A stretch of 32,970 bases of DNA from Candidatus Gastranaerophilales bacterium (GTDB lineage: Bacteria > Cyanobacteriota > Vampirovibrionia > Gastranaerophilales > Gastranaerophilaceae), in assembly GCA_947589115.1 (NCBI GenBank), contig CANPZP010000017.1:1-32970 (forward strand), given 5' to 3'. Every line of letters starts with the position of its first letter. The stretch's first letter is position 1. This document shows, piece by piece, positions 6,338 through 9,063 of the stretch. A program made the position numbers and the translations under genes. Below the pieces are notes generated by a model that was given only the letters and a program-made list of their open reading frames with translations, was not told the DNA's origin and did not search any database.

Positions 6338-7456
6338 ATGAAATCACTGCTTAAATTTACAATTTTAGATAAATTTTTATTAAAACAAGTTATTGAAGTA
6401 TTCTTTTTAGGAGTTGTCGTATTTACTTCAATTATATTTGCTTCAGATACATTTATATCATTAATTAAACAGATATCTACTTATGGGATGTCAATGAATA
6501 TAGCATTAATGATTATAATGTTAAATCTTCCCGCCGTAATTGTTATGACAATACCTATGAGCGTACTTTTCTCAACCGTCATGACTATAAATAAAATGTG
6601 TCTGCAATCAGAAATAACTATTCTGAAAGCATGTTCTATCAGCATTAAAAGAATATCAAAACCTCTGTTTTTATTCGGGTTTATTATGGCACTTTTAACG
6701 TTTTTTATAAATGAAACAGTAGTTCCTTTAACGACATCACAATCTAAAACCCTTGCACTCTATGCTCTGGTGCAAAGAAATATTCCGGAAGGTAAAAGAA
6801 ATTTTACTATAAAAGAACTTAAAGACGGTAATAAACTTAAAAGATTATTCTATGTTGAAAAATGTGAAGATAAACAATTTTCTAACGTATCCATTCTGGA
6901 TTTATCAAATGATGATAAAGTACAAATACTTCAGGCAAAAACCGGTACTTCTGTTATTGAAGGCTGGCAGTTTGACAATGCTTCCGTTTATACAATATCA
7001 AAAGAAGGTAAAACCCTTAATACTTCTTGGATTGAAAAATCTATTGTTGATTTCGGTACGGATATTCAGTCCCAGCTTAATAAAAAAGATGACGGTTCGG
7101 ATTTAAATGTTATACAACTGACTCATTATCTTAAAAATAATACAGACAGTAATTTATCCCCCGAAACTCAAGTGAAATATCAGGTGCAATTTTGGGAAAA
7201 AATGGCTCTTCCAGTTACTACTTTAGCTTTTGTTTTACTTGGTATTCCTTTAGCTATAACTCCTCCCAGAGTAAGACATAATCGTGGACTTTTATTTTCT
7301 ATAGGCGTTATCTTCTGCTATTACATTATTCGTGCTTTTTCAATGTCTTTAGGGCTGAATCAAACAATTTCACCATTTTTCGCGGCAAATCTTCCCAACA
7401 TAATCCTTATAATTATTGGCTTTATACTTTTTTATAATAAATCAGAAAAAGTATAA
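6338..7456 (+). CDS. LptF/LptG-family permease (YjgP/YjgQ)
   Basis: Inner-membrane component of the lipopolysaccharide export ABC transporter, which with LptB extracts LPS and passes it to LptC and LptA. The 372 residues show the family pattern: about three N-terminal membrane segments (about 14-36, 52-80, 102-124), a periplasmic beta-jellyroll region of about 150 residues, and three C-terminal membrane segments. The first periplasmic stretch has FASDTFISLIKQISTYGMS, and the last cytoplasmic loop has PLAITPPRVRHNRGL, both typical. I cannot decide between LptF and LptG. It follows the DUF815 gene by 29 bases with a poor ribosome site. Its presence implies an LPS-type outer membrane or a related glycolipid. 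Confidence 0.9.
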   Translation: MKSLLKFTILDKFLLKQVIEVFFLGVVVFTSIIFASDTFISLIKQISTYGMSMNIALMIIMLNLPAVIVMTIPMSVLFSTVMTINKMCLQSEITILKACSISIKRISKPLFLFGFIMALLTFFINETVVPLTTSQSKTLALYALVQRNIPEGKRNFTIKELKDGNKLKRLFYVEKCEDKQFSNVSILDLSNDDKVQILQAKTGTSVIEGWQFDNASVYTISKEGKTLNTSWIEKSIVDFGTDIQSQLNKKDDGSDLNVIQLTHYLKNNTDSNLSPETQVKYQVQFWEKMALPVTTLAFVLLGIPLAITPPRVRHNRGLLFSIGVIFCYYIIRAFSMSLGLNQTISPFFAANLPNIILIIIGFILFYNKSEKV

Positions 7457-7510: not shown

Positions 7511-7611
7511 TAGAATATAAAAAGAAAATAATAAATATTTAATAAATACATATAATTTTAAATATAAAAATGGCTTAAAGGCAAACTGCGAGCTAATTTT
7601 AAAGGTATATT

Positions 7612-7620
7612 GGTATAATA
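7612..7620 (+). promoter_or_regulatory. Extended -10 promoter of the coiled-coil protein gene
   Basis: The sequence TGGTATAAT is a perfect TGN-TATAAT extended -10. No convincing -35 is seen. The predicted transcription start is near 7627, giving a leader of about 85 bases before the ATG at 7712, unusually long for this window. Confidence 0.6.
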
Positions 7621-7640
7621 AAACAAATACTGACTTTGTT

Positions 7641-7653
7641 AGGCAATTTGCCT
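7641..7653. promoter_or_regulatory. Short GC-rich palindrome in the leader
   Basis: AGGCAA and TTGCCT flank a single T, a perfect palindrome of 13 bases lying just after the predicted transcription start. The outer copy AAAGGCAAA at 7578-7586 is complementary to TTTGCCTTT at 7647-7655, so the element also has a partner on the other side of the promoter. This placement suits an operator, but no regulator is identified. Confidence 0.4.
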
Positions 7654-7678
7654 TTAAAAAAAGTTTTTATATAAGTGT

Positions 7679-7712
7679 GGTTAGTTAAATCTGGGAAAAG
7701 GTAGGTTAGTTA
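7679..7712 (+). repeat. Direct repeat in the 5' leader, covering the ribosome site
   Basis: GGTTAGTTA occurs at 7679-7687 and again at 7704-7712, the second copy running into the A of the start codon. Both copies are complementary to AACTAACC in the 3' untranslated region of the same gene (8251-8258). The AGG at 7703-7705 is part of the likely ribosome site. Confidence 0.6.
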
Positions 7713-8233
7713 TGGGTTATGCTTTATTTGCGAATCGTAAGATTTATTACACAAATCTTATTTTTAGTATTCAACAACAACTTGACAATATAACTCAACA
7801 AAAAATGAGTTTAATGAATTTTTCAGGCAACATTAGTGACGGTCAAGTAACGGTTGACGAAATTGCATCAGATGCATCAAATTTGTCAAATTACAAAGAT
7901 TATTTAGCCGGAGCAGATGCATATGCTAACAAAGCAGATGATGAAGGCGGAGCTGCGACTTCTATAGGAGAAATCGGAGGAATGGCTGCTCAACAAAACA
8001 ACAGTGAAGAATACTTAGCATCAATTGCTGAAATGCTGAATAAATCTGTTAATGAAGCATATTCAAAACAGTATTCAAAGAAATTAGAAATTTTAGAAAA
8101 TCAGTTAGATATGAAACAAAAACAGTTAGAAACAAAATTAACGGCAGCTCAATCACAATTACAAACAATTGAACAGGCTGAAGCTCAAGCAATTCAACAA
8201 GCAACTCCTAAATTTGCAGGACTTCAGGGATAA
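7712..8233 (+). CDS. Unknown coiled-coil protein, probably highly expressed
   Basis: A 173-residue protein of no family I can name. Residues 1-35 are helical and glutamine-rich (IQQQLDNITQQKMSL). The middle (about 45-105) is rich in Ala, Gly, Asp and Ser. Residues about 110-163 form a strong coiled coil with regular heptads (KKLEILENQLDMKQKQLE). The protein ends in PKFAGLQG. It has one short hydrophobic patch but no true signal peptide or membrane span, and no cysteine. It is monocistronic, with its own extended -10 promoter, an AGGTAGG ribosome site and a strong terminator. Codon use is cleaner than in neighbouring genes, suggesting high expression. The layout recalls small exported or structural helical proteins such as secretion-system filaments, but that is speculation. 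Confidence 0.82.
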   Translation: MGYALFANRKIYYTNLIFSIQQQLDNITQQKMSLMNFSGNISDGQVTVDEIASDASNLSNYKDYLAGADAYANKADDEGGAATSIGEIGGMAAQQNNSEEYLASIAEMLNKSVNEAYSKQYSKKLEILENQLDMKQKQLETKLTAAQSQLQTIEQAEAQAIQQATPKFAGLQG

Positions 8234-8250
8234 AAAATCATAACTGGCTA

Positions 8251-8267
8251 AACTAACCGAACTAACT
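8251..8267 (+). repeat. 3'-UTR repeat complementary to the 5' leader
   Basis: AACTAACC (8251-8258) and AACTAACT (8260-8267) lie between the stop codon and the terminator. The first is the exact complement of GGTTAGTT at 7679-7686 and 7704-7711; the second matches over seven bases. Base pairing would bring the two mRNA ends together over the ribosome site. Confidence 0.55.
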
Positions 8268-8270
8268 GAG

Positions 8271-8297
8271 AAAACGACCTTAACGGGTCGTTTTTTT
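8271..8297 (+). terminator. Strong intrinsic terminator, usable from both strands
   Basis: The stem AAAACGACC pairs with GGTCGTTTT across a six-base loop and is followed by a run of T on the plus strand. The A run on the other side gives a shorter U-tract for the minus strand, so it probably also ends the seven-gene minus-strand unit whose last stop codon is at 8296. Confidence 0.85.
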
Positions 8298-9063
8298 AAT
8301 TGTCTGATTGAACTTTCGCCGAATAACCTTTTGACCTCAATTGAGATGCCAATTCATTTGCATTATCTTTATTATCAAAAGTTCCCGCCTGTATAACATA
8401 ACCGTTAGCTGTTTTTTTAATAAACGGAATAATATTTAATCTTTCTCTAATTATATTATCTCTTGCAACGGTAGCTTCATCAACGGAAGAAAAAGTTCCG
8501 ACAATAACTTTATTTATAGATGATTTAGAACTCATATCCGTCTTTTTGGGAAGAGGGATAACTCCTGAATTTTCAGCTGCTTTTCTAAAATCAGCTTTAA
8601 TATAATCAATTTGCTGTTTATTGGGAGCAGGTGCTTTTTTTACTTTTTCTTCAGTATTATTATCTGTCTTTTTCGGTTTTTCATCATAATCCTTTTTTTT
8701 AGGAGCTTCAATAACAGCCTTGTTACGTCCGGAATCCTCAGTACTATCATTATTGTATTCATTGTCAGGCTCTAATAATTTCGGTTCTTTTTCACCTGCC
8801 GAGGGGAGTTCATCTTCTTCTTGAATCCATTTTAATCTTTCATCAATTGTTTTTTCTTCCAATGCAATATCAGAATCCGAAAGAGTTATGGGTTCTGAAT
8901 TACCTATTGCAACATCAACATCCGGAGAAAATGAATCAACAATATACGATAGTCCGAATAAAGTAAGCGCAAATATACACGCAAACAATAAAAAATATTG
9001 AAAGAAATGATTTTTTTTCTTTTTTCTGCGTCTTTTTGGCTGTTCGTTATGCTGTTCTTGCAT
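8296..9063 (-). CDS. Membrane-anchored SPOR-domain protein
   Basis: A 255-residue type II membrane protein. The cytoplasmic N-terminus is very basic (KRRRKKKKNHF, about 10-20). One membrane helix spans about 20-42. A low-complexity periplasmic linker rich in Lys, Glu, Pro and Asn runs to about 178. The last 75 residues form a SPOR domain (INKVIVGTFSSVDEA, then GYVIQAGTFDNKDNANELA and a final SKGYSAKV). SPOR domains bind peptidoglycan strands stripped of stem peptides at the septum, so a division or wall role is likely (FtsN/DedD-like layout). It is the last gene of the pheS-to-SPOR run; its ATG shares one base with the stop codon of the DUF366 gene. Confidence 0.88.
   Translation of the reverse strand: MQEQHNEQPKRRRKKKKNHFFQYFLLFACIFALTLFGLSYIVDSFSPDVDVAIGNSEPITLSDSDIALEEKTIDERLKWIQEEDELPSAGEKEPKLLEPDNEYNNDSTEDSGRNKAVIEAPKKKDYDEKPKKTDNNTEEKVKKAPAPNKQQIDYIKADFRKAAENSGVIPLPKKTDMSSKSSINKVIVGTFSSVDEATVARDNIIRERLNIIPFIKKTANGYVIQAGTFDNKDNANELASQLRSKGYSAKVQSDN

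Follow-up and report, generated by a model that had tools for sequence, protein, structure and literature searches.

The stretch of DNA analysed here (the window; 32,970 nucleotides from a Candidatus Gastranaerophilales genome of 1.82 Mb in 98 contigs) raises the question of what a separately transcribed coiled-coil protein does in this lineage, and how its mRNA is controlled. The gene, P0001, is a single ATG open reading frame on the forward strand (7712-8233) encoding 173 residues (MGYALFANRK...ATPKFAGLQG). It is monocistronic; lptF/G, ending at 7456, lies on one side and a SPOR gene in convergent orientation (8296-9063) on the other. The AF2 model (pLDDT 83) comprised helices at residues 2-41 and 99-164 with short helices between 48 and 95, the layout running from a Gln-rich helical start through a Gly/Ala/Asp centre to a long C-terminal helix; both the ORF and the modelled helices agreed with a preliminary description of the locus. 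Its statement that the protein contains no cysteine was borne out for P0001 itself and likewise for 18 of 28 orthologues, and cysteine was depleted among the orthologues (0.35% relative to a background of 1.15%). The term 'free-standing' held for transcription only, since the paralogue search proposed in the same description found four clear paralogues in the own genome: three of 146-148 residues (MGYALFAxRK) and one of 114 residues (MAFLVAFNRK). HU, with which P0001 had been compared for its transcription signals, was not found among the small ORFs scanned in the window.

The family had been called unknown, and the searches bore this out: P0001 gave nothing above the cut-off in Pfam or NCBIfam and no match in a PDB sequence search, and generic coiled-coil noise was all that the Pfam, NCBIfam, PHROGs and PDB sequence searches returned. 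A phage origin was rejected, phage records having no match. Orthologues were clear in 33 of 35 genomes of the same genus (own genome counted), the two exceptions being 70% and 83% complete. A P0001 profile matched 121 of 240 genomes of the class, nearly all within the same taxonomic family, and homologues occurred in most Gastranaerophilaceae. In the contig search, a single P0001 sequence retrieved no loci (0), and the profile retrieved 79. The order of lptF/G, SPOR, DUF366 and queC was kept in the genus genomes read, and the gene order on the SPOR side was shared also by genus g41. A 92-residue C54 match (L007) was excluded as a paralogue, the common part being the ATPKxAGL tail only. In one genome (G025), a 675-bp stretch with a 147-residue paralogue was present at two unrelated places (L167:7092-7766 and L168:8006-8680; 99.7% identical); together with several assemblies that broke inside such paralogues, this duplicated stretch suggests recent duplication or gene conversion. 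Altogether, the data supported the description of P0001 as an undescribed, lineage-specific coiled-coil protein that is independently transcribed.

The N-terminus of P0001 was in register with that of proteins starting MGLAASQARFLxLTARKSD ('MGL'); a search with a 50-residue consensus confirmed such proteins in 56 of 58 genomes searched, and across the class they were present in 162 of the 240 genomes. Conserved at both ends, these proteins vary greatly in the length of the centre (open frames from about 100 to about 800 codons). Across the superfamily the N-terminal helix begins MGxxxSxxR or MGYALFAxRK, and the C-terminal coiled helix is conserved. N- and C-terminal HMMs were made from MGL-type proteins only (Z=2000; 600 background ORFs). 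The N-terminal HMM matched the P0001-type protein of genus g30 (E=0.0014), the syntenic g41 orthologue (0.0047) and short members (down to 9e-10). With the C-terminal HMM, the g30 and g18 proteins gave 3e-6 and 5e-4, respectively, and the own-genome 114- and 147-residue paralogues matched as well (6e-12 for the former). P0001 itself scored insignificantly against the MGL HMMs (C-terminal E=1.5); hhalign of P0001-type proteins against the MGL C-terminus gave E=1.7e-5, and one long helical hairpin was common to the AF2 models of both types. Judged by these similarities, which coiled coils inflate, P0001 appears to belong to the MGL superfamily transitively, via its orthologues and paralogues. 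The superfamily is large and unnamed, with a flagellin-like layout and no sequence match to flagellins, and its assignment is new. Each of the five genomes read encodes a conserved Gly/Ser-rich protein of 268-272 residues beside an MGL gene (L138:2582-3388; homologues in L151-L154), and the C-terminus of this protein weakly matched the MGL C-terminal HMM.

A possible route for such proteins out of the cell was indicated by the gene content of the genome, in which type III export gate genes (known here from the genes) coexist with P0001. Such genes lie on own-genome contigs C13 (L134) and C5 (L163): one cluster encodes FlhA, FliI, FliH, FliF, FliE, rod proteins, a lytic transglycosylase and a weakly FliG-like protein, and another encodes a FliM/N-type protein, FliP, FliQ and FliR. 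Flagellin was detected in 2 of 35 genus genomes, and in 21 of the 22 genomes from elsewhere in the order; a lone flagellin gene was seen at G003 C32:21421-21831, in a genus otherwise devoid of it, and may stem from contamination or transfer. Pfam scans of 26 family members gave no match to flagellin, and the own genome had no PF00669. Most other genomes of the order carried two full FlhA and two FliP types, of which the genus retained the lower-scoring type only; this second type, which differs from the flagellar FlhA/FliP, was present across the order. Having lost flagellin, the genus kept the basal body and the export gate of flagellum type. Di Rienzi et al. listed two flhA among 13 flagellum genes common to their four genomes and reported that MEL.A1 lacked the gene set needed for a fully functional flagellum (PMC3787301). 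A soluble protein of about 487 residues that has the cytoplasmic domain of FlhA/SctV but no membrane part (FlhA-C) was encoded near clpP (L135:8928-10391, own genome C11) and was found in all 45 of 45 genomes examined.

The MGL-positive taxa listed among the 240 genomes were all FlhA-positive, and the FlhA-negative families f8 and f13 had no MGL genes; MGL genes were likewise absent from the FlhA-positive families f10-f12, and one genome (G144, 99% complete) had MGL genes and no full FlhA match. Co-occurrence of FlhA and MGL tracks phylogeny. In four genomes, MGL genes lay 6-9 kb from fliE/fliF-fliG-fliH-flhA. In two genomes of genus g33 (L162, L164), the immediate neighbours of the P0001 homologue, all on one strand, were clpP on one side and the FlhA-C gene on the other, an adjacency seen in this one genus; in the own genome, no linkage of P0001 to export genes was found.

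P0001 can be compared with flagellins and flagellar axial proteins (PF00669, PF00460/PF06429), with which it shares conserved N- and C-terminal helices, a variable centre, few cysteines, several paralogues, its own transcription unit and an export gate in the genome. It differs from the flagellin and rod families in being much shorter and without a detectable sequence match, and from flagellin in its N-terminal motif (MGYALFAxRK / MGLxxSQxR), and its export is here an inference. The preferred reading, to which we give somewhat less than an even chance, is that P0001 is an exported subunit, built like flagellin, of an export system derived from the flagellum, and that the ends of its mRNA pair in cis and gate translation. 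P0001 would be exported by the flagellum-derived apparatus through an N-terminal signal, and its two end helices would pack to form a surface filament or rod, or the decoration of one. Export by a type III apparatus is plausible, on circumstantial grounds, and the 'exported filament-like' protein of the preliminary description likewise stays plausible, given the flagellin-like architecture, the FlhA-bearing taxa, the FlhA-C neighbour and the depletion of cysteine.

P0001 might instead be an intracellular accessory of the export apparatus (a chaperone, regulator or FlhA-C docking partner) that is not itself exported. The gene arrangement in g33 would fit such a role, as would the long helical hairpin, frequent in accessory proteins of this kind, and a sequence with no visible Sec signal. 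This is nevertheless unlikely, since conserved termini around a variable centre, many paralogues and cysteine depletion suit axial proteins better, and P0001 has its own transcription signals and is unlinked to export genes outside g33.

The fold comparisons bear on a further alternative, in which P0001 has no relation to type III export and serves as a coiled-coil scaffold (PspA/Vipp1-like or other) in the cytoplasm or at the membrane. Fold searches gave no significant match for either P0001-type or MGL models, generic helical bundles being the most that was returned. The MGL model superposed on PspA with a TM of 0.72, though with E=0.44. In the VIA comparison, a P0001-type model aligned with the N-terminal domain of IpaB over 99 residues at 1.9 A with a Z of 9.4, a score that many unrelated bundles reach alike; the helical hairpin resembles this type III translocator coiled coil, but there is no sequence relation and the fold score lies within the range of unrelated helical bundles. 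The generic nature of the hairpin, the PspA superposition and the taxa that have FlhA but not the family would all fit a scaffold, which we nevertheless consider distinctly unlikely, as the superfamily is missing from the FlhA-negative families of the class and its genes lie near fliE-flhA in four genomes.

The second part of the preferred reading, the gating of translation by the mRNA ends of an exported subunit, concerns the sequences on either side of the ORF. Alignment of 28 orthologue upstream regions revealed a conserved GCAATTT element (7643-7649, forward strand), a possible -35 region, and a conserved TTTTTATATAA (7664-7674, forward strand), the likely -10 region, from which transcription would start near 7680. 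The conserved block ran from GCAATTT to the ATG, and the leader was strongly conserved over about 75 nt before the ATG, in keeping with the long leader described previously. An extended -10 (TTGGTATAAT, 7610-7619) and a palindrome (AGGCAATTTGCCT, 7641-7653) proposed earlier are present in this genome but were dismissed as functional marks because neither has a counterpart in the orthologues. A consensus promoter scan reported no plus-strand sigma-70 site ahead of P0001, nor did it report the A-tract terminator. The strong terminator proposed earlier was recovered in the whole-mRNA fold and by orthologue comparison, as an intrinsic hairpin with a T-run (8268-8297, forward strand); a hairpin and T-run followed the stop codon in 30 of 30 orthologues, with differing stems. 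An Rfam scan gave no match near gathering scores.

The leader of P0001 holds GGTTAGTT twice, the second copy abutting the ATG, and the 3'UTR holds AACTAACC-like copies before the terminator. Two helices between these regions, all strands lying on the forward strand, were predicted. In helix H1 (duplex prediction and pairing statistics), GGTTAGTT at the mRNA 5' end (7679-7686) would pair with AACTAACT in the 3'UTR (8260-8267); in the whole-mRNA fold this helix appeared in a shifted register (7683-7687/8263-8267). In helix H2, GGTTAGTTATG, reaching from the ribosome-binding site (RBS) to the AUG (7704-7714), would pair with CATAACTGGCT (8239-8249; whole-mRNA and duplex prediction), with pairing probabilities in the whole-mRNA partition function that lay mostly between 0.94 and 1.0 over 7704-7711 and between 0.70 and 0.81 at the AUG. 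The only exact occurrence of GGTAGGTTAGTT in the genome was in the 7704-7714 region.

Of 160 own-genome genes compared, P0001 had the strongest leader/3'UTR duplex (-22.3, relative to a mean of -8.8 and an sd of 3.2). For 30 orthologues, own leader/3'UTR pairs averaged -18.5 kcal/mol relative to -16.3 for swapped partners (z -6.2), a permutation test whose force is limited by the relatedness of the orthologues; control duplexes (reversed sequences, upstream segment) lay between -6 and -10, and in these the own pairs had no advantage. Uninterrupted helices of at least 8 pairs were found in 25 of 30 orthologues for the RBS part and in 25 of 30 for the 5' part, relative to 22% and 32% of shuffles, respectively. 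Both strands were altered in the divergent orthologues L037 (GTGATTAATTA/TAATTAATCAC), L036 (TTTATAAGG/CCTTATAAA) and L020 (TTAGTTTAAAT/ATTTAAACTAA), as well as in L022 and L039, and it is on these few divergent orthologues that the covariation rests, because the leader is nearly invariant in the genus. Homologues in g18, g33 and g41 kept GGTTAG-type leaders (pairing of -13.8 to -23.1), and leader/3'UTR pairing was absent in the g30 homologues. The paralogue class overall showed a weaker own-pair effect (z -3.0), with many members having none. Some paralogues (L076, L083, L085, L095, L117, L139, L166 and L168) have leaders that are unlike that of P0001 and complementary to the start of their own 3'UTR, over at least 12 pairs and in several cases including the SD. 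The 5' and 3' UTRs of P0001 are complementary beyond chance, and the helices, as predicted, would mask both the 5' end of the mRNA and the region from RBS to AUG.

That the GGTTAGTT (5') and AACTAACC (3') repeats are sites bound by an RNA or protein acting in trans and not strands of one cis helix, as the two copies per side in many orthologues and the near-invariant genus leader might suggest, is improbable, given that own pairs beat swapped pairs, that L037, L036 and L020 change both sides together, and that some paralogues have unrelated yet complementary ends.

With the mRNA ends of P0001 paired in cis, the RBS and start codon would be closed and translation held down until something, such as a link to export or a factor acting in trans, opened the pairing; the paired ends may also stabilise the message. 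In the icaR mRNA of Staphylococcus aureus, a 3'UTR segment is complementary to the mRNA's own ribosome-binding region (PMC3868564), and the P0001 3'UTR is similarly complementary to its own RBS region and predicted to close the initiation site. Unlike icaR, P0001 has two helices (at the 5' end and from RBS to AUG) and a short 3'UTR ending in a terminator; its motif and gene are unrelated, and the pairing, known here from computation, is kept across genera.

Flagellum genes common to Melainabacteria genomes, including one that has no complete flagellum, have been interpreted as flagellum genes only (PMC3787301). A wider proposal, which we regard as rather doubtful, is that in Gastranaerophilales a second flagellum-derived type III machine outlived the flagellum, that the superfamily comprises its extracellular filament or secreted proteins, and that the end-paired mRNA of the main subunit gates translation, perhaps by export. 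If, in non-flagellated gut lineages, these genes make up an export machine apart from the flagellum, one that has a filament or secreted proteins of its own, it would give these uncultured gut bacteria a new route for contact with the host or with neighbours. In addition, an mRNA whose cis pairing is kept across genera would give a clean model of bacterial 5'-3' UTR control, for which icaR is the worked example.
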